Shown: in pieces, positions 2,078-55,399 of the stretch
How the letters are laid out: the number at the start of each line of letters is the position of its first letter
How positions within the stretch are numbered: position 1 is the stretch's first letter
DNA from: Fusicatenibacter sp.
GTDB lineage: Bacteria; Bacillota; Clostridia; Lachnospirales; Lachnospiraceae
Length of the DNA stretch: 64,000 bases
Direction of reading: 5' to 3'
Assembly (NCBI GenBank): GCA_017887445.1
Contig: JAGHIA010000125.1
Span: 1-64,000 of the forward strand
Translations under genes and position numbers: made by a program
The notes under the pieces: model-generated
Told to the model about the DNA's origin: nothing
The model's input: only the letters and a program-made list of their open reading frames with translations
The model's database searches: none

Positions 2078-2174
2078 GTAACAGTTCCGCCTTGCTGAAC
2101 TATTACACGCTTCGCAATGGCCGGACGCCGCGCAAAGACTGCTTCCCTCAGTCTCTGCGCGGCGTCCGGCCGGT
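2078..2174. repeat. Module A repeat with large GC-rich hairpin
   Basis: Begins with a 29-base palindrome (GTAACAGTTC...GAACTATTAC), continues with the recurring ACGCTTCGC motif, and ends in a long near-perfect hairpin, GGCCGGACGCCGCGCA pairing with its complement around a short loop. It lies between ftsH and galE, together with module C just beyond. No target duplication is visible for this copy. The hairpin could slow transcription leaving galE but has no T-run. Confidence 0.7.
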
Positions 2175-7262: not shown

Positions 7263-7268
7263 ATATTT

Positions 7269-7320
7269 TCATACGGTCTGTGCAGTGAATGCACCGATCT
7301 GGCTGAACTGTTGTCATAAA
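7269..7320. repeat. Partial module A repeat downstream of araC
   Basis: Contains the recurring stretch TTTTCATACGGTCTGTGCAG followed by TGCACCGATCTGGCTGAACT, an inverted pair also seen at 9.76, 13.0, 34.4 and 35.6 kb. No intact GTAAC ends. Confidence 0.55.
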
Positions 7321-7333
7321 TGCGCAACCCTGA

Positions 7334-7404
7334 AGTGTGTTTGAAAATTCATTCCACGCAAAACGGACGCACATCTTGCAGAAAGCAATTTTCAAACACA
7401 CTCT
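7334..7404. repeat. Module C palindromic repeat
   Basis: Terminal inverted repeats AGTGTGTTTGAAAATT and AATTTTCAAACACACT enclose about 40 bases containing CGCACATCTTGCAGAAAG. It lies between the convergent araC and pyrimidine phosphorylase genes and could act as a transcription barrier. Confidence 0.75.
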
Positions 7405-7425
7405 GGCCAAACTATATCGTAATCC

Positions 7426-8810: not shown

Positions 8811-8968
8811 CGTATTTGAAAATTGCTTTCTGCAAGATGTGCGTCACAGTTTGTGGGGAATCTGTTCCGGAACCGGGAAACGCAGCGGACTGCGCAGACT
8901 GATTTCGGGACAAATTTCCCGCAAAGTGAGGCGTGCAGAGTGCAGGAATAAATTTTCAAACATTCTCT
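8811..8968. repeat. Module C repeat, long copy
   Basis: Left arm TATTTGAAAATTGCTTTCTG, right arm AATAAATTTTCAAACATTCT, with about 120 bases between them including CAAGATGTGCGTCACA, which recurs at 12.7 and 55.3 kb. The right end touches the stop codon of the YhhN-type gene. Fills the pdp upstream region; no other gene seen there. Confidence 0.7.
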
Positions 8969-9626: not shown

Positions 9627-9758
9627 AGGTTCTCCTCTCTTCCATGGGATTTGCCGCGCGTATTCCGGCGCAGTAACCTTTTCTATTATTGTATTTGTCA
9701 AGCGTGATCATGTCAACGTGATTTTTGCAGTGGACTTTCGCAATTACGATGCCCGCAG

Positions 9759-9825
9759 ACATTACGTTTTCATAGGGTCTGCGCAATAAATGCACAGACC
9801 TGGCTGAATAGCACGTTTCCTACGA
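9759..9825. repeat. Partial module A repeat
   Basis: TACGTTTTCATAGGGTCTGC and TGCACAGACCTGGCTGAATA repeat the inverted pair described at 35.6 kb. Upstream of the YhhN-type gene. One end is degenerate. A short module D fragment (AAGATGTCAAGGTCA) follows at 9838. Confidence 0.5.
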
Positions 9826-11621: not shown

Positions 11622-12959
11622 CTACCAGCTGCACCTGCCGCAGTTGGTACATGGAATACAGCTTTTCTTCTCCACCTTCGCCTCCCAGTCGAGGATTTCC
11701 ACCGAGTCCGCCTGATCCGCAGCAATTTTCCACTGCTGATCTCTCACCTGGAACAGAATCTCCTCCTCCGAAAATTCCAGCTCCACCGGATAAATACGGA
11801 TCTGCTCCGGGTGCATACAGCTTTGATAAACCACCGGCGTGATCTCCTGAATCTCTGTGCCTTCTGTTGTCCCGTTTGACAGCGGCAGATGCAGACGAAA
11901 ACAATGAGCAGCTGTAATAATCCTGCGTACCGTTCCGCTTTCCTCGATGATCTCCTGTTCGGGGGTGCATGGGTACGGAAGCCTGCGGCTCATTCTGACT
12001 ATCCCGATTGGCGTAGTTCTCTGACCGCAAAGATATTCCAGAAGATTCCTCGTCGTCCACTTTAAAAACGCCGGAAGATCTTCCCGCGCTGTCAGCACCG
12101 CCATAGTCTGCGATGTCTCCGTGCACACAAACTTTGGACGGTTCCATCCGGTCCCTTCCATCATCTGCCCGATGAACCACAAATACTCCGTCACCTCAGA
12201 CGTTCCCACATGAAAAATCCCGCCTTTTTCATTTCCGATCACCCACCGCACATAGTCTGCTATCTGCAGATCCGCGGCGTGATTGCTTCTCAGTCCTTGA
12301 AACACTTCCAGCCGCCCCGCGCGGCAGCCTTCCCTCACCTGCCGGATCCTCGGGGAATCCTGTCCCCACACAAAAGGAAGGCGCAGGATGGAAAGCCGGG
12401 CGCCCAGCCATTCCGTCAGCAGCCTTTCACAGGCGATCTTATAATTTCCATACTCGCTGACCGAACCAGGCGTATCGTCTTCATAATGGACCGTATCTGT
12501 CTTTCCATCAAACACATTGGCGCTGGAAAGAAAAATCATCCGTCCTCGCCGGCAGTTCAGATATGCGGCCGCCTTTCTGTGAGTCTCCAGCAGAAGCTCA
12601 TAATCACCGCGAAGGGCGGACACGATCACATCCGGCTGCGTCTGCTCCAGGATTTCCTCCAACCGTCCTTTCTGCTCCAGCGAAAACTGCATCATCTCAC
12701 ACCTGTCCGCCCCGCCGCCAGAGTGTGTTTGAAAATTGTTTTCCGCAAGATGTGCGTCACCACACGCTCTCGTGTTTTCGCCAACACGTTCACCCGGCCT
12801 TGTATGATTCGCTCTCTGTCTGGAAGGGTTCGCAGACTGCGCCGCCAGGTGGAAAGTTCCCGTCACCTTCCATGTTTTCTCACTGCTCAATACCTGTGCG
12901 ATTTTTCTACCGACGGTTCCGCTGGCTCCGAGGATCAGGATTCTTTTTTCATATTCCAT
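11622..12959 (-). CDS. RmlD/SDR-like NAD(P)-binding protein, interrupted by a repeat
   Basis: 445 residues. N-terminal Rossmann motif LILGASGTVGRKIA and the SDR Tyr-x3-Lys in YGNYK, with FLSSANVFDG upstream of it, mark an extended SDR of the RmlD/epimerase group. Around residues 38-80 the protein has a basic, low-similarity insert (SANPSRQRANHTRPG...) that is encoded by a copy of repeat module C plus flanking repeat sequence, see 12722-12839. The C-terminal 130 residues are unlike the SDR core and end CIPCTNCGRCSW, a Cys-rich tail. The frame is open throughout, but function may be impaired. Substrate unknown. GGGGAG lies upstream of the ATG. Confidence 0.7.
   Translation of the reverse strand: MEYEKRILILGASGTVGRKIAQVLSSEKTWKVTGTFHLAAQSANPSRQRANHTRPGERVGENTRACGDAHLAENNFQTHSGGGADRCEMMQFSLEQKGRLEEILEQTQPDVIVSALRGDYELLLETHRKAAAYLNCRRGRMIFLSSANVFDGKTDTVHYEDDTPGSVSEYGNYKIACERLLTEWLGARLSILRLPFVWGQDSPRIRQVREGCRAGRLEVFQGLRSNHAADLQIADYVRWVIGNEKGGIFHVGTSEVTEYLWFIGQMMEGTGWNRPKFVCTETSQTMAVLTAREDLPAFLKWTTRNLLEYLCGQRTTPIGIVRMSRRLPYPCTPEQEIIEESGTVRRIITAAHCFRLHLPLSNGTTEGTEIQEITPVVYQSCMHPEQIRIYPVELEFSEEEILFQVRDQQWKIAADQADSVEILDWEAKVEKKSCIPCTNCGRCSW
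12722..12839. repeat. Module C repeat inserted in the SDR gene
   Basis: AGTGTGTTTGAAAATTGTTT and CAAGATGTGCGTCAC are the module C arm and inner motif. The insert is flanked by a 9-base direct repeat CGCCGCCAG at 12713 and 12840. The opposite arm is absent; its place is taken by CGCAGACTG, which matches the interior of the 8.8-kb copy. The offset between the direct repeats is 127 bases, so simple removal would shift the frame. Confidence 0.7.
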
Positions 12960-12979
12960 AACTTTCCGTACTCCCCAAG

Positions 12980-13085
12980 TAATGATTCAACCAGATCTGC
13001 GCATTTACTGCGCAGATCGTATGAAAACGTAGTGCCTGCAGGCATCCGGCTCATCGCGAAGCAATTTTCCATGGCCGGATGCTGC
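12980..13085. repeat. Module A-type repeat, ends degenerate
   Basis: Contains GATCTGCGCATTTACTGCGCAGATC (hairpin), GAAAACGTAGTGCCTG and GCATCCGGCTCATCGCGAAG...GGCCGGATGC, the same order of parts as the intact copy at 35.6 kb. It abuts the end of the CcdA-thioredoxin gene. Confidence 0.65.
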
Positions 13086-14712: not shown

Positions 14713-14756
14713 TGCAGATTGTAACAGTTCAGACAGCTGAATCGTTCCTGCAGATT
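14713..14756. repeat. Minimal 28-bp module A element with exact 8-bp target duplication
   Basis: GTAACAGTTCAGACAGCTGA followed by ATCGTTCC (14721-14748) is bracketed by TGCAGATT at 14713-14720 and 14749-14756. The second copy of the duplication overlaps the TAA stop codon of the ATPase gene. The element is essentially two inverted ends with four bases between them. Confidence 0.85.
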
Positions 14757-18016: not shown

Positions 18017-19291
18017 TCATTGATCATATCCCTGAAGCATCTTACTCATGCGGAGAAAACTCAGCCGGTTTCTCGCATACGGACAAAGCGTAAGCGTCAT
18101 CGGAACCAGTTCCCTGGAAATCCCCACCTGCTCTGGCTCATAACAGCAGCCTGCCTTTTTAAGGATATCCGTCAGCTTCTTTGCCGGCGGGATCTGGTCA
18201 ATGATGTCCGCGATCTCCGGGAGCAGCTCCATCAGCCGCTCCGGGTCCACCAGTTCCAGCGGGTCCGGCGTATTCTCCCTGACGGTGCTCTCCATCAGTC
18301 CCTTTTTGCCAAAGGTTTCCAAAAGAAGCTCCGTCTCCAGACCGTGGTACGGCTTCAGACGGCAGGTTCCCTGACGAATGGCTCTTGCGATTTCCTCGTA
18401 TTTTTTTCTCACCAGGATCAGTCCTACCGAGACTTTTTCTCCGTGAAGCGCGTCCACCTGACCGTTGATCACCTGCATCTCCCATAAATGAGAGACGTGA
18501 TGCTCCGCGCAGGAGGCCGGACGGGAATTTCCCACCATCTGCATGGCGATCCCGGAAAGGAGCAGCGCGTACATCAGCTGCTCGCAGGCTTCCGGCTCGC
18601 CTTCCTTCAGCTCGTCGATGAGGGACACTGTCTTCTCCAGCGCCTCCTCCTCCAGAGCCACCGTCCGCTCACAGATGTATTCATCCGTCACCAGAGAAGC
18701 GATCTTCCAATCTGCCAACGCGATATATTTGCCCATCAGATCCGACATACCCGACGCGGTCAGACGGTACGGAGCCTTTGAAAAGATATCCGTATCCGCG
18801 AACACATACAGCGGCGCCTGCGCCGGTATGGTCTTTTTCATTCCGTCCCAGGTCATTGCCGCCACCGTGGACACAAAGCCGTCCACACTGGCCGCCGTGG
18901 GCACGGAGATAAAGGGGATCCCCCATTTGTGGGACACATAGCGGCTCAGATCATGAATGGTACCGCTGCCCACCGCCAGAATCAGGTCCGTCTCCTCCGG
19001 AAGGGTCTCCTCCAGGATTTCCACTCCGTGGTTGTCCGCGTGAAGATTCTCACAGTCGAGACACACCGACTCGCAGAGCTCCTCCACATCCTCCAGCGCT
19101 TCCTGGGCCGCCTGCCTTGTGTTTTCGTCCCAGACAATAGCCGGTGCGGAAAAGTCCCGAAGTTCTCCCTCCGTCAGCATCTCATACAGCTTTTTCGCGG
19201 CGCCGGATTGGATCCAGATCCCTTTTACAGTGATCTCATGCTGCCGCTTACAGGAACAGGGGCCCTGAAACTGCTCCACGTCTATTTCCAT
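18017..19291 (-). CDS. egsA: sn-glycerol-1-phosphate dehydrogenase (AraM/EgsA type)
   Basis: NAD(P)-dependent reduction of dihydroxyacetone phosphate to sn-glycerol-1-phosphate, an archaeal-type backbone also made by some Bacillota. 424 residues. NAD-binding motif VGSGTIHDLSRY and the following SVPTAASVDGFVS match the iron-containing dehydrogenase-like G1P family, and AEHHVSHLWEM contains likely metal-binding histidines. AAAGGAG lies eight bases before this ATG and inside the ORF-track extension, deciding the start. Preceded by three tandem module B copies. Followed by ispF 39 bases on. Confidence 0.88.
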   Translation of the reverse strand: MEIDVEQFQGPCSCKRQHEITVKGIWIQSGAAKKLYEMLTEGELRDFSAPAIVWDENTRQAAQEALEDVEELCESVCLDCENLHADNHGVEILEETLPEETDLILAVGSGTIHDLSRYVSHKWGIPFISVPTAASVDGFVSTVAAMTWDGMKKTIPAQAPLYVFADTDIFSKAPYRLTASGMSDLMGKYIALADWKIASLVTDEYICERTVALEEEALEKTVSLIDELKEGEPEACEQLMYALLLSGIAMQMVGNSRPASCAEHHVSHLWEMQVINGQVDALHGEKVSVGLILVRKKYEEIARAIRQGTCRLKPYHGLETELLLETFGKKGLMESTVRENTPDPLELVDPERLMELLPEIADIIDQIPPAKKLTDILKKAGCCYEPEQVGISRELVPMTLTLCPYARNRLSFLRMSKMLQGYDQ

Positions 19292-19297
19292 TTTTAC

Positions 19298-19509
19298 TCC
19301 TTTCATGGCGCACTAGCTGCGCCAATAATAGTAGATTTGGAAGTTACCTTCCAAACTTTTTATCCTTTCCTCTTTCATGGCGCACTGGCTGCGCCAATAA
19401 TGGCAGGTCTGAAAGTTACTTCCAGACTTTCCTGCCCTCTCCTTTCAAGGCGCGCTGGCTGCGCCAATAACGGCAGATCCGGAAGTTACCTTCCAGACTT
19501 TCCTGCCCT
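19298..19509 (-). repeat. Three tandem module B repeats upstream of egsA
   Basis: Three consecutive units of about 66-70 bases. Each, read on the minus strand, has a GGAAGTAA(C)TTCC-type hairpin, an ATTATTGGCGCAGCCAG segment, a closing GTGCGCC, and ends in ATGAAAGGAG or a variant. The unit nearest egsA supplies the Shine-Dalgarno sequence. Other copies lie at 20.54, 43.50 and 46.82 kb, always between co-oriented genes. Confidence 0.85.
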
Positions 19510-19514
19510 TGCTC

Positions 19515-20531
19515 TTAATTGAAACCGTAAATCTTCTGCGCCAGCTTGTAGCCGTAAACCGCGATCTTCTGGCTCGGACGGCTCTTGGCGCTCATAATGG
19601 AACCGAGCACCCCGTGGCGGATCCTGAAATAATCCACCGGGTCCTGGCTTTTCAGATATTTCCAGAGTTCGTCCTTCTTTTTCAGATTTTCCTCCAGCTC
19701 GGAGCGCATCATCATCACCGACGACACGGTCATGATCATGCTCAGATAATTTACCATATATTTTCTCAGCTGCTTGTTGAGATTTTTCTGCTGTCCCATG
19801 TAGTCGATCATCAGCTTGTTGACACGAATCTGCTGGTCGATACGGCCGATCATCACCTGCTCGTTGACCGACTGGTCGCTGCGGCCGATGTAGTAACGGT
19901 AAAAATTCACGTCCACATAATACATGGTCTTCACATACGGGAACGGGATGAACGCCACCAGGTTATCCACATAAAAGGTATGCTCCGGCAGCTCCAGTCC
20001 ACAGTCCCGCAAAAGGTCTGTGCGGAAGATCAGGGAGTGCATCAGGATATATCTGGTGCTTCCCAGGGATTTGGTGTCATTCCAGCCGAAAAACGTGTCC
20101 TCCGGCAGCGAATGGGCGTAGCGCATCACGCGTTTTCTTTTCGCTCCCACCTTCTCGTAAACGTAATTGCTGATCAGCATATCCAGGGTCCTGTCTCCCC
20201 GGACCGCGTCCTCCAGCACCTGCAGGATTTTTCTGTAGGCCTCCTCGTTTACCCAGTCGTCGCTGTCCACAACCTTGAAGTAAAGTCCTGTGGCATTTGC
20301 CAGTCCCGTATTCACCGCGCCCCCGTGGCCTTTGTTCTCCTGATGGATGGCCCGCACGATGGTCGGATATTTCTTCGCGTATTCTTCTGCGATTTCGGCC
20401 GTGCGGTCCTTGGAGCCGTCGTTGACGATCAGGATCTCCACATCCTCTCCTCCCTTCAGGAGAGAATCGATGCACTTTTCCATATAGGCTTCTGAATTGT
20501 AACAGGGTACGGCAAAAGTCAATATTTTCAT
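19515..20531 (-). CDS. Family 2 glycosyltransferase
   Basis: 338 residues. GT-A fold start TFAVPCYNSEAYMEKCIDSL, nucleotide-binding IVNDGSKDRT, and the metal-binding DxD-type motif VVDSDDWVNEEAY place it in GT2, transferring a sugar from a nucleotide sugar to an unknown acceptor. The C-terminal 120 residues are helical without clear membrane segments, so it is probably cytoplasmic or peripheral. AAAGGGGA from the end of a module B repeat serves as ribosome site; the ORF-track start lies within that repeat. Lies downstream of mutY in the same direction. Confidence 0.9.
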   Translation of the reverse strand: MKILTFAVPCYNSEAYMEKCIDSLLKGGEDVEILIVNDGSKDRTAEIAEEYAKKYPTIVRAIHQENKGHGGAVNTGLANATGLYFKVVDSDDWVNEEAYRKILQVLEDAVRGDRTLDMLISNYVYEKVGAKRKRVMRYAHSLPEDTFFGWNDTKSLGSTRYILMHSLIFRTDLLRDCGLELPEHTFYVDNLVAFIPFPYVKTMYYVDVNFYRYYIGRSDQSVNEQVMIGRIDQQIRVNKLMIDYMGQQKNLNKQLRKYMVNYLSMIMTVSSVMMMRSELEENLKKKDELWKYLKSQDPVDYFRIRHGVLGSIMSAKSRPSQKIAVYGYKLAQKIYGFN

Positions 20532-20535
20532 GATT

Positions 20536-20664
20536 TCCCCTTTCATGGCGCACTGGCTGCGCGTAACGATTCAGTCTCTGGTAACAGTTCAGCCAGCTGA
20601 ACAGTTACGGCTGCGCCAATACTGGCAGATTTGGAAGTTTCCTTCCAAACTTCCTTTTTCTTTC
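20536..20664 (-). repeat. Module B repeat interrupted by a module A element
   Basis: The module B hairpin is split: GGCGCACTGGCTGCGC at 20547-20562 is followed by a 46-bp insert, 20563-20608, beginning GTAACGATTCAG and ending CTGAACAGTTAC. The module B sequence resumes with GGCTGCGCCAAT. GGCTGCGC is thus duplicated at 20555-20562 and 20609-20616, an exact 8-bp target duplication relative to intact module B copies. Confidence 0.88.
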
Positions 20665-26419: not shown

Positions 26420-26496
26420 TACCTGCGGACATCCGGCCCGCCGCGAAGCGGTTTTCAATGCCGGATGCCTGATGATTCCGCTTGTTAAACAGTTAC
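26420..26496. repeat. Partial module A repeat over the 3' end of the asparaginase gene
   Basis: CATCCGGCCCGCCGCGAAGC and GGTTTTCAATGCCGGATG form the module core hairpin; one end is AACAGTTAC. That end overlaps the last codons and stop of the asparaginase gene (GTAACTGTTTAA on the minus strand). Confidence 0.6.
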
Positions 26497-28302: not shown

Positions 28303-28444
28303 TAACAGTTCCGCCTGCCGCCATCCCGCGAGGTGTTTTCGCAAAGAATGCGCGAAAATCCCCAGGCCGGCAGCGCGAGACTGCATGAACTGCGGTTTCT
28401 GTGTATCGCGAAGTGCGTAATAGTTCAGCGGACTGAACTGTTAC
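28303..28444. repeat. Module A-type repeat between alkD-like and MATE genes
   Basis: Starts ATAACAGTTCCG and ends with the 28-base unit GTAATAGTTCAGCGGACTGA/ACTGTTAC at 28417-28444. The core has CCATCCCGCGAGGTGTTTTC and an AATGCGCGAAAAT hairpin, shared with the 31.8- and 34.5-kb copies. No target duplication visible. A further degenerate stretch of the same kind lies in the MATE leader (28540-28630). Confidence 0.65.
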
Positions 28445-28514: not shown

Positions 28515-28679
28515 AAAGGATAGAGCGCATGGAACATTCCTTTCTGCGTGTATGCGTACTTTCGCGCAACCGTCCGGCCGGCTGCTATCCCACGAGGTAA
28601 CTGGCACAGAACGTGCGGAAGTCCCGGGGCCAGCAGATCACCAAAAAGAATGTTGAAACACGCGCAAAGGAGGATTCTT

Positions 28680-30173: not shown

Positions 30174-30201
30174 GTAACTGATCAGCCAGCGGAATAGTTA
30201 C
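30174..30201. repeat. 28-bp module A unit
   Basis: GTAACTGATCAGCCAGCGGA then ATAGTTAC, ending eight bases from the fucosidase stop. No target duplication visible. Confidence 0.65.
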
Positions 30202-31783: not shown

Positions 31784-31952
31784 TTTACAAAGTAACCGTT
31801 CAGCCAGCGGAACGATTACACGCTTCGCGATGCACAGAAACTTCATTTCATGGAGTTTCGCGCTGCAGGTCTCGGGATTTTCGCACATTCTCGCACATTC
31901 TGTGCGAAAACACCTTGCGGGATAGTGGCTGGCTGAATAGTTACCTTACAAA
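31784..31952. repeat. Module A element between AKR and fucosidase genes
   Basis: The element 31792-31944 begins GTAACCGTTCAGCCAGCGGA and ends GGCTGGCTGAATAGTTAC. Flanks TTTACAAA and CTTACAAA match at 7 of 8 positions and probably are the target duplication. The right one contains the stop codon of the AKR gene. Core motifs CACGCTTCGCGATGCACAGA and CGGGATAGTGGCTGG are shared with the 34.5- and 36.9-kb copies. Confidence 0.8.
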
Positions 31953-34364: not shown

Positions 34365-34626
34365 GCAAAACGGTAACTATCTACCAGCCAGCAACTACTC
34401 AGCCAGGTGTGTGCGTTTCCTGCACACACTGTATGAAAACGTAGTGCTTGCGGGCATCCGGTAACCGTTCAGCGTTGCCGAACGGTTACACGCTTCGCGA
34501 TGCACAAAAACTGCATTCCATGCAGTTTCGCGCTGCAGTCCTCGGGATTTGCACATTCTGCGGGAAAACACCTCCGGGATAGTGGCAGGCTGAGCTGTTA
34601 CGGCATCCGGACAGTTACGCAAAATC
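34365..34626. repeat. Nested module A elements
   Basis: An outer element (34373-34618) is interrupted by an inner one (34461-34601). The inner copy starts GTAACCGTTCAGCG and ends GCTGAGCTGTTAC and is bracketed by GGCATCCG on both sides, an exact 8-bp duplication of outer-element sequence. The outer copy is flanked by GCAAAACG and GCAAAATC, 6 of 8 matching. Together they occupy most of the gap between the divergent ADH and AraC genes. Confidence 0.88.
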
Positions 34627-35617: not shown

Positions 35618-35767
35618 ATCTTATGGTAACGATTCGGCCAGGTCTGTGCATTTACTGCACAGACCTGGCCGAAAACATAGTGCATGCGGGCATCCGGCCC
35701 ATCGCGAAGCGATTTTCAATGGCCGGATGCCGCAACAATTCAGCTGGCTGAATCGTTACATCTTATG
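35618..35767. repeat. Intact module A element with exact 8-bp target duplication
   Basis: The element 35626-35759 (134 bp) begins GTAACGATTCGGCCAG and ends CAGCTGGCTGAATCGTTAC. ATCTTATG is duplicated on both flanks. It contains two hairpins, GGCCAGGTCTGTGCA with its complement, and GCATCCGGCCCATCGCGAAG...GGCCGGATGC. It carries no ORF and is the best reference copy of the family in the window. Confidence 0.92.
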
Positions 35768-36873: not shown

Positions 36874-37013
36874 AACAGTTTCAGGCTGAACGATTACACG
36901 GTTGGCATTGCACAGAAACTGCATTTCTTTGCAGCTTCACGCCGCGGACCTCAGGATTTTCGCACGTTCTGTGCGGAAACACCTTGCGGGATAGTGGTAA
37001 GCCAAACTGTTAC
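36874..37013. repeat. Module A repeat in the dnaJ-like upstream region
   Basis: Left end worn (TTTCAGGCTGAACGATTAC), right end CCAAACTGTTAC. The interior repeats the order seen at 31.8 kb: GCACAGAAACTGCATTTC, TTCGCACGTTCTGTGCGGAA, CCTTGCGGGATAGTGG. No target duplication found. Confidence 0.7.
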
Positions 37014-37163: not shown

Positions 37164-37191
37164 GTAACTATTCATCCAGCTGAATAGTTAC
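37164..37191. repeat. 28-bp module A unit in an extended palindrome
   Basis: GTAACTATTCATCCAGCTGA then ATAGTTAC; the flanks AAGTAT and ATACTT extend the palindrome. The rest of the gap up to the DUF1848 gene shows nothing further. Confidence 0.65.
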
Positions 37192-42792: not shown

Positions 42793-43494
42793 TCAATTCC
42801 GCTCAATGAACGCCCGGTTGATATCATCGTACTTTCCTCTTGCCAGAGGAAGCTCACAGCCGCTGTCCAGCCAGACCGCCGTGCGCGAAATCCTCCGGAT
42901 ATGCTTCAGCGACACCAGATAAGACCGATGTGTCCGGTAAAAGTCACCGCTGAGTTTTGCCTCCAGCGTAGAAAGATTCTCTTTCAGCTTATATTCTGCA
43001 TTTTTCGTATGGACAACAATATAATGCAGCAAGGATTCAATATACAGGATATCCGTTTCCAACAGCTTCACCGTTTCCCCGCTGCAGTTGATAATCAGTG
43101 TGGGCGGCTCCACAGACAACTTCTGCACAGCCTTGGAAAGCACCTCCATAAGCTTTGCTTCCGCAACCGGTTTTATAAGGTAATGCAGCGCATCGACCTC
43201 GTAGCCTTCTCCAGATAACTCAAAATGGGAGGTTGTAAAGATGATCTCCATGCGGCAATCCGTAAGCCGCAGCCGCTTCGCCAGCTCGATGCCGGAAATC
43301 TTTTTCATCTCTACATCCAGCAGCAGAATGTCGTAGTCCTTGTTTTCTTCGTAGTGAAAGAGAAAGCTTTCGGCGGAGGGGAAGGTATCGATTTTTAGGG
43401 ATATCTCTTCTCGCTTCGCCCATTTGGCGGCGATGGACGCGAAATACTGCGCGTCGGGAGCGATGTCGTCGCAGATTGCGATTTTGTATTTCAT
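42793..43494 (-). CDS. LytTR-family response regulator
   Basis: 233 residues. Receiver domain with the acidic pocket in AICDDIAPD, the phosphorylated Asp in ILLLDVEMKKISG and the lysine in ALHYLIKPV. The C-terminal LytTR DNA-binding domain includes YIESLLHYIVVHT and FYRTHRSYLVSLKHI. Partner of the downstream GHKL kinase and likely regulator of the adjacent ABC exporter. The ribosome site AAAGAGG is the end of a module B repeat. Confidence 0.93.
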   Translation of the reverse strand: MKYKIAICDDIAPDAQYFASIAAKWAKREEISLKIDTFPSAESFLFHYEENKDYDILLLDVEMKKISGIELAKRLRLTDCRMEIIFTTSHFELSGEGYEVDALHYLIKPVAEAKLMEVLSKAVQKLSVEPPTLIINCSGETVKLLETDILYIESLLHYIVVHTKNAEYKLKENLSTLEAKLSGDFYRTHRSYLVSLKHIRRISRTAVWLDSGCELPLARGKYDDINRAFIERN

Positions 43495-43497
43495 TTT

Positions 43498-43566
43498 CGC
43501 CTCTTTCATGGCGCACTGGCTGCACCAATAATGGTAGATTTGGAAGTTTACTTCCAAACTTGTCCT
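43498..43566 (-). repeat. Module B repeat upstream of the LytTR gene
   Basis: Minus strand: GTTTGGAAGTAAACTTCCAA hairpin, ATTATTGGTGCAGCCAGTGC, then GCC and ATGAAAGAGG leading into the regulator start. Lies between the GNAT gene and the regulator. Confidence 0.8.
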
Positions 43567-44390: not shown

Positions 44391-45592
44391 ATCTATACTC
44401 CACTCTGCTTCTACTCAAATGCGCACGGGCCGTGGATAGTCTGGGGCGGATGGAAATCTACATTCCATTATGCTTCTACTTCAATGCTTTTGAGTTTGGA
44501 AACTCAATGCAACAGCAAGAATCTACATTCCACTATGCTCTACTTCAATGCGGTATTTATCCTGACTCATGGGCGTGCTGATAATGATCTACATTCCACT
44601 ATGCTTCTACTTCAATGCAGTGTGGTGTCCCTCATACAGCAGGACGTCTCCATCTACATTCCACTATGCTTCTACTTCAATAGAGCAGTATCTGACGCAG
44701 AGCAGATATAAAGATGATCTACATTCCACTATGCTTCTACTTCAATTTACCTGCAAGATAGTCCAAAAACGCGCAGAGCTTATCTACATTCCACTATGCT
44801 TCTACTTCAATTGCTGCCGGATCTGACAGTAGAATGCTTGCGCTGCATCTACATTCCACTATGCTTCTACTTCAATGCAATACGGTGATTGATGGCTATC
44901 TGGCCATTACCAATCTACATTCCACTATGCTTCTACTTCAATCCAGTACGCTGGGGCAGTTTGACGTATGCAGCTAAATCTACATTCCACTATACTTCTA
45001 CTTCAATAAAAGAAAAGTCTCCATGCTACGAGTGGTGAACCAATCTACATTCCACTATGCTTCTACTTCAATAACAAAACGGAGCCTGATCCGCAATTCG
45101 ATCTATATCTACATTCCACTATGCTTCTACTTCAATTTGTAGCAATCATCAAATATTCCGTTGCGCAGATCAATCTACATTCCACTATGCTTCTACTTCA
45201 ATTCACACACACATAACACGGCGGTTTGCAGGAGCCGCATCTACATTCCACTATGCTTCTACTTCAATTTTGCCCTCGGCAGCAGCAGCATGATACATTT
45301 CAGATCTACATTCCACTATGCTTCTACTTCAATTCATTGAGCGCCGCCTGTGCGCTCCGTGCCTGCAATCTACATTCCACTATGCTTCTACTTCAATTAA
45401 TACGCTCATTGATTATTCTCCTTCCGTTTCTTCATCTACATTCCACTATGCTTCTACTTCAATTCAATCTGGCCGTTATCGTTTGTAACGTTGTCGAATC
45501 TACATTCCACTATGCTTCTACTTCAATCTACAATCTCGCTCTCTCGCCACTGCTCCCGCACCATCTACATTCCACTATGCTTCTACTTCAAT
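44391..45592 (-). CRISPR. Type I-B CRISPR array, 19 repeats and 18 spacers
   Basis: 30-bp repeats, on the transcribed minus strand starting ATTGAAGTAGAAGCATAG and ending TGGAATGTAGAT, at 44391, 44456, 44521, 44587, 44652, 44717, 44782, 44847, 44913, 44978, 45043, 45107, 45173, 45239, 45304, 45368, 45434, 45498 and 45563. Spacers are 34-37 bp, all different. The ATGTAGAT end would be the crRNA 5' handle, as in Clostridioides type I-B repeats. Repeat 44391 is degenerate, 44456 and 44978 carry one change, and 44521 lacks one base; these lie mostly at the old end. The leader is on the cas2 side. ORF-track proteins full of HSTMLLLQ are array translations, not genes. Confidence 0.98.
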
Positions 45593-46796: not shown

Positions 46797-46811
46797 GTTA
46801 CCCGATACTAA

Positions 46812-46892
46812 ATGTTCTTACTCCTTTCATGGCACACTGGCTGCGCCAATAATGATAAATTTGAAAGTTTACTTCTAAATTTCCTCTTTACT
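46812..46892 (-). repeat. Module B repeat at the cas3-cas1 junction
   Basis: Minus strand: AATTTAGAAGTAAACTTTCAAA, ATTATTGGCGCAGCCAGTGT, then GCCATGAAAGGAG. It sits exactly where cas4 and the first 85-90 codons of cas1 would be expected. The rest of the gap, to 46977, shows no recognisable coding remnant. Confidence 0.8.
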
Positions 46893-55185: not shown

Positions 55186-55323
55186 GCATATTGAAATTGA
55201 ACTGTAAGTGCTGATTATTAGTGCAGCAGAATATAAATAAACCAGGAGCAAATCGATTTCTATCATACAGGTTTGCTCCCACGAATAATGATAGGCTGAA
55301 CTGTTGCTACATGCTTTTTCCGC

Positions 55324-55399
55324 TAGAGTATGTTTGAAAATTCATTCCTGCAAGATTTGCGTCACAATTTGCAGAAAGCAATTTTCAAACACACTCTAG
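55324..55399. repeat. Module C palindromic repeat
   Basis: CTAGAGTATGTTTGAAAATT and AATTTTCAAACACACTCTAG form the ends of a 76-bp element with CAAGATTTGCGTCACAATTT inside. It lies between the convergent NUDIX and GIY-YIG genes; nothing else is visible in this gap. Confidence 0.75.

Follow-up and report, generated by a model that had tools for sequence, protein, structure and literature searches.

Short, gene-less elements with GTAAC tips were found throughout the window (the whole 64-kb stretch of DNA analysed here), and they are very probably MITEs moved in trans by an IS66-type (ISBst12-like) DDE transposase. They are short and non-coding, carry a fixed 8-bp target duplication, have empty sites, and share their tips with IS66-type transposons of relatives. 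MITEs are a known kind of element; what is new here is that one end is a two-tip palindrome, that 28-bp solos exist and that the ends are linked to those of the ISBst12 type. The analysis documents the family in Fusicatenibacter and other gut Lachnospiraceae, with a density of about one copy per 5 kb. The elements account for recurrent short intergenic repeats in these genomes and offer ready-made strain markers.

Elements in the window and their anatomy

The element at 35626-35759 reads GTAACGATTCGG...CTGAATCGTTAC with ATCTTATG on each side as a perfect 8-bp duplication, bearing out the GTAAC...GTTAC ends described in the original prediction, and its DNA fold has a z of -9.9. The four perfect 8-bp flanks claimed there (ATCTTATG, TGCAGATT, GGCTGCGC and GGCATCCG) are all real and perfect, and the count of at least ten copies or fragments in 64 kb was right, with about 16 found by tip matches and by profiles built from duplication-bearing copies.

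The elements range from 28 to 153 bp and fall into two main classes, A (~133 bp) and B (~144 bp), each bearing a complete 28-29-bp palindrome at one end. Class A consists, in order, of the 28-bp palindrome GTAACAGTTCAGCCAGCTGAACTGTTAC, a hairpin GGCATCCGGCC...GGCCGGATGCC, a second hairpin GGTCTGTGCA...TGCACAGACC and the other tip, while class B has a 29-bp palindrome, a body unlike that of class A and the other tip. Solos consist of nothing but a 28- or 29-bp palindrome between 8-bp duplications, and intermediate sizes of 39, 46, 51 and 111 bp are internal deletions retaining both tips and the duplications. Furthermore, the class B element at 34461-34601 is inserted into an older class A copy (~34373-34618), a nesting overlooked in the original prediction. 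The following features were located in the window:

35618..35767, minus strand: class A element 35626-35759 (134 bp) between its two ATCTTATG target duplications; has two internal hairpins and, on the right in window orientation, the terminal 28-bp palindrome
34453..34609, plus strand: class B element 34461-34601 (141 bp) flanked by perfect GGCATCCG duplications and lying within the older class A copy
34373..34618, minus strand: older diverged class A copy with the class B element inserted in it; flanked by GCAAAACG/GCAAAATC as a 6/8 duplication
31784..31952, plus strand: class B element 31792-31944 (153 bp); a fifth duplication, TTTACAAA/CTTACAAA (7/8)
20555..20616, no strand: 46-bp mini-element 20563-20608, an end plus the 28-bp palindrome, flanked by perfect GGCTGCGC duplications and located within another repeat
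14713..14756, no strand: solo 28-bp palindrome 14721-14748 flanked by perfect TGCAGATT duplications, its right tip changed to GTTCC by mutation
28303..28444, minus strand: class B element, near full length
36882..37013, plus strand: class B element with degraded left tip
12979..13085, minus strand: class A element without the terminal palindrome
26420..26496, minus strand: class A fragment
9748..9811, plus strand: class A fragment
7266..7312, plus strand: class A fragment
2078..2144, plus strand: class B fragment with left palindrome
28568..28637, minus strand: class B fragment, weak (E = 5e-6)
30174..30201, no strand: 28-bp palindrome with no recognisable duplication
37164..37191, no strand: 28-bp palindrome with flanks 5/8 identical

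Abundance, placement and target duplications

The end motif GTAACNGTTCAG occurs 713 times (365+348) in the 3,880,909-bp genome and its reversed control once (0+1); with one mismatch, the counts are 1,760 (881+879) and 30 (16+14), respectively, indicating that the elements are not a product of chance. Counts beyond these pattern searches rest on a sample of 20 stretches plus the window (415,678 bp, 10.7% of the genome), which is enriched (91 exact ends against 76 expected), so that copy numbers were scaled down. The sample holds 91 class A or class B copies or fragments, covering 8,598 bp (2.1% of the sampled DNA), and scaling by tip counts gives an estimated genome total of ~700-850.

The duplication was examined in the same 415,678 bp. 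Among 99 tip pairs lying 27-156 bp apart, 38 have flanks at least 6/8 identical, compared with none when the flanks are shifted 10 bp outward. Identity is 84-92% at the eight duplication positions and drops to 8-34% just outside, indicating that the duplication is exactly 8 bp. Moreover, the empty sites with a single 8-mer that the original prediction proposed to look for in related strains were found both within the genome and in a relative. The copy at 20563-20608 interrupts a different dispersed repeat of ~70 bp, for which the sampled genome provides at least 15 uninserted copies, each with one GGCTGCGC-like 8-mer, as exact empty sites. In G005, a genome of the same genus, the orthologous spacer is without both the class A copy at 34373-34618 and the nested class B copy and reads ...CCGCAAAACAC..., with the outer duplication present as a single copy (one GCAAAAC). 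No other cross-species empty site was usable, intergenic DNA being too diverged at ~80% gene identity.

The interrupted ~70-bp repeat (CTCCTTTCATGGCGCACTGGCTGCGCCAATAATGGCAGATTTGGAAGTTTACTTCCAAACTT) lies in the window at 19286-19500, 20520-20652, 43489-43561 and 46810-46882, and also in the stretches L045, L047, L049, L051-L053 and L055. It often stands two or three in tandem at 65-72-bp spacing, has two short palindromes and has no Rfam match. In L055 it is found just upstream of a methyltransferase-like gene. A 2,351-bp tip pair in L055 with 7/8 flanks, which encloses a methyltransferase-like gene, was rejected as a chance pairing.

When placement was scored with a simple custom gene caller, 77 of 85 placeable copies were intergenic, compared with ~23% of random positions. 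Between tandem genes the elements lie at a median of 40 bp past the upstream stop, and relative to these neighbours their orientation shows a weak bias (34 opposite, 18 same). In the three hairpins, examined on 52 copies of class A drawn from several species, 96% of cells are paired and 13 pairs carry double changes, compared with 6.2 +/- 1.3 after shuffling and 3-7 with slid partners; the internal hairpins of class A thus show compensatory changes. These changes, together with the strongly intergenic placement shortly after upstream stops, would suit repeats kept by the host as regulatory or RNA-processing hairpins, whose mobile origin is old and irrelevant today. We regard this explanation as improbable, as perfect 8-bp duplications, found in many copies, imply that insertion was recent, terminator- or promoter-like signals are not enriched near the element, the window gave no Rfam match, and the strand bias to neighbouring genes (34 against 18) is weak. 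For elements that spread as MITEs, the hairpins may have been kept because they help propagation.

Relation to IS66-type transposons

The assignment to IS66, originally drawn from the GTAA termini and 8-bp duplications, was supported and refined to the single-ORF ISBst12 group as the nearest. ISDge4 of this group has the tip GTAACTGCTCAGCA and an 8-bp repeat CCTCGATG, and its transposition has been seen in the laboratory (PMC12898284). The likeness of the elements to this group lies in this tip and direct repeat, and in ISBst12-like proteins of Lachnospiraceae relatives found behind GTAAC[A/T][G/A]TTCAG ends; they differ in being 28-153 bp long and gene-less, with the 12-14-base tip as the only sequence common to MITEs and transposons.

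IS66-type elements with similar ends, which the original prediction had expected in the genome or its relatives, are present in the relatives G035, G046, G267, G005 and G032. In the first three, the left end reads GTAAC[A/T][G/A]TTCAGCC and is followed in each by an IS66-type N-terminal reading frame. G035, with 198 exact tips, has GTAACAGTTCAGCC at L184 and, 234 bp on, an IS66-type N-terminus cut off by the contig end; G046 (L025) has GTAACTATTCAGCC and then a reading frame homologous to that N-terminus; and G267 (L204) has GTAACAGTTCAGCC and then an IS66-type reading frame as in G035. At the other end, an IS66 C-terminus ending in SYIGTAHKHGYNAYEAIRSAISGHPDVIFE at the stop stands at four contig ends of G005, with the tip GTAACTGTTCAGCACCC following in the two examined, and about fifteen contig ends of G032 carry an IS66 C-terminus, with GTAACTGTTCAG-type tips, including GTAACTGTTCAGAACTCC, in those examined. 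Furthermore, G020 and G090 have single-ORF elements with GTAACTRTTCAGAACCCCC; in G020 an IS66-type gene lies between two such tips, without a duplication, and its protein scores above the NF033517 cut-off.

At L204 (G267:C32, 1001-2310), the start of the IS66-type transposon is joined to a reading frame resembling cas1, suggesting a truncated ISBst12-like element within a CRISPR-Cas locus of G267.

On this evidence, an IS66-type (ISBst12-like) transposase would bind the GTWACNGTTCAGCC ends and make 8-bp target duplications, and probably made the copies. The original prediction held that the elements contain no transposase and are mobilised in trans. The first part stands, the elements having no room for a gene at 133-153 bp; the second part we infer, and such mobilisation may be past. 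The transposase may now be absent from the genome or lost from the draft assembly. Copies would have landed mostly between genes and nested in one another, and the inserted copies would then have decayed to the ~700-850 copies or fragments of today.

In the genome's own draft assembly, no match was found to two Pfam models, DDE_Tnp_IS66 and TnpB_IS66, to a 7-sequence IS66/ISBst12-like profile or to a query of a relative's joined N- and C-terminal parts. Likewise, G001 and G003, both high-copy relatives, gave no IS66 transposase with the 7-sequence profile or the joined protein ends, and neither phages searched for the element nor plasmids searched for the transposase N-terminus gave a match. 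That IS66-type queries find no transposase in the genome or in several high-copy relatives would suit an unrecognised, different DDE family with GTAAC ends and 8-bp duplications as the mobiliser. Such a family is quite improbable, since at least five relatives have IS66-type reading frames adjoining the same ends, and G005, of the same genus, has them by such ends in at least four places. Contigs break inside multi-copy transposons in G005 and G032, which explains why drafts seem to be without a transposase gene, and little weight can be placed on its absence from a draft. None of the assembled insertion sequences among the loci examined combines an 8-bp duplication with GTAACNGTTCAGCC at each end; those nearest to complete run off their contigs, have GTTAC ends (L097) or are without a duplication (G020).

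Canonical tnpABC IS66 elements of relatives (L010, L014) are similar in their GTAA start and 8-bp duplication, but their inner tip reads GTAAGCGTCAAATA, compared with GTAACNGTTCAG here, and no TnpB (PF05717) or TnpC (PF03050) was found in the genome; this source was rejected. Divergent IS66-like elements, with two ORFs or one long ORF (520-590 aa) and GTTACTGTTCAS ends, were observed in Lachnospiraceae at L024, L025, L027, L094, L097 and L099. At L097, a two-ORF element is bounded on either side by GTTACTGTTCAS tips and a perfect 8-bp duplication. Three members tested fall below the NCBIfam IS66 cut-off, and the group is probably an undescribed IS66 subgroup.

Solo palindromes, comparison with known repeats and distribution

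Each solo 28-bp palindrome consists of two 12-base tips back to back around a 4-base centre. In the sampled DNA of Candidatus Fusicatenibacter intestinigallinarum (G001, a member of the same GTDB genus as the window's genome, Fusicatenibacter), all 14 full-length duplication-bearing elements pair a GTAAC tip with a GTTAC tip, whereas among solos with flanks at least 6/8 identical 27 have GTAAC at both tips; 8 solos have GTAAC/GTTAC. The duplications are of similar freshness, with a mean identity of 7.3/8 for the 27 solos and 7.5/8 for full elements. Plain deletion of a full element would give GTAAC/GTTAC solos, and those with two GTAAC tips look as though the terminal palindrome transposed using the pair of tips it contains. 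Since 21 of the 27 match the search pattern used to fetch the loci, a bias-free comparison omits them, giving ratios of GTAAC/GTAAC to GTAAC/GTTAC of 6:8 for solos and 0:14 for full copies (Fisher p = 0.016). Tentatively, the solo palindrome could itself be a mobile unit, among the smallest transposons known, although this is rather less likely than not.

Many solos may be products of a deletion running from the inner arm of the terminal palindrome to the far end; because the inner arm and far tip are direct repeats, such a deletion would leave the 28-mer with its duplication. Deletion is favoured by the same mix of centre bases in solos and full class A copies, and by class B, in which inner tips read ATTAC in 14 of 16 full copies and the 29-bp solos mostly have GTTAC tips. 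As the only source of solos it is disfavoured: the centre bases fit, but the tip bases of F. intestinigallinarum do not. GTAAC/GTAAC solos may derive from deletion in an older master or from correction of the palindrome. The palindromic end offers full elements a simple way of becoming minimal ones, and solos with clean duplications raise the question of the minimum length of a DDE transposon, and of whether two tips 4 bases apart are enough.

The 28-bp palindromes might also be REP sequences spread by RAYT, a tyrosine HUH transposase, with the longer elements as REP clusters. Their size of 28-29 bp, intergenic position and hairpin form are REP-like, REPs being short (20-40 bp) intergenic palindromes of high copy (PMC3733652). 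This origin is highly unlikely and was rejected, given the clean 8-bp duplications around both solos and long forms and GTAAC tips matching the ends of IS66-type transposons; in addition, the elements have no GTAG tag. IS200/IS605-type HUH transposases are not known to produce such duplications.

The preferred reading of the elements as MITEs places them beside bacterial families such as Correia/NEMIS, ERIC, QMITE and Chunjie, with 711 ERIC copies in Photorhabdus (PMC10969869). They share with these a small non-coding body, terminal inverted repeats, target duplications, intergenic placement, size variants by internal deletion and hundreds of copies. They differ in that one end is a complete two-tip palindrome, which is also found alone with duplications. 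A term search of the text of that review (PMC10969869) returned no mention of IS66, Clostridia or Lachnospiraceae, and in the literature searched, which covered few subscription papers, no description of this MITE family or of its link to IS66/ISBst12 ends was found.

In a 391-genome sample of the class, the exact palindrome pattern was found in the genome itself only. Among the matches listed, the palindrome also occurs in Ca. F. merdavium, Lacrimispora saccharolytica An817, Ca. Scybalocola faecigallinarum and a few uncultured Lachnospiraceae/Mediterraneibacter MAGs. A minority of the family's members carry the 12-mer tip in amplified form, and other genera have other bodies, including one of 165 bp in G009 and one of 142 bp in G031, both with duplications. 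In RUG12455 (L153), an element with an unrelated body is capped on one side by the same 28-bp palindrome, and its duplication is perfect. The right end of full-length class A elements is GTAAC (inward GTTAC) in F. intestinigallinarum and F. merdavium (L103-L180) and GTTAC in the window's species, suggesting that master copies are species-specific at the third tip base.

An inverted-repeat family with ends AGAGTGTGTTTGAAAATT...AATTTTCAAACACACTCT and cores CTGCAAGATGTGCGTC looks like a separate MITE family and was observed in the window at 2195-2225, 7330-7407, 8812-8968, 12717-12760 and 55322-55397; one of its copies is interrupted by a GTAAC solo (L042, 12387-12415). The window also contains a CRISPR array at 44436-45592, with about 17 repeats ATCTACATTCCACTATGCTTCTACTTCAAT at 64-66-bp spacing.
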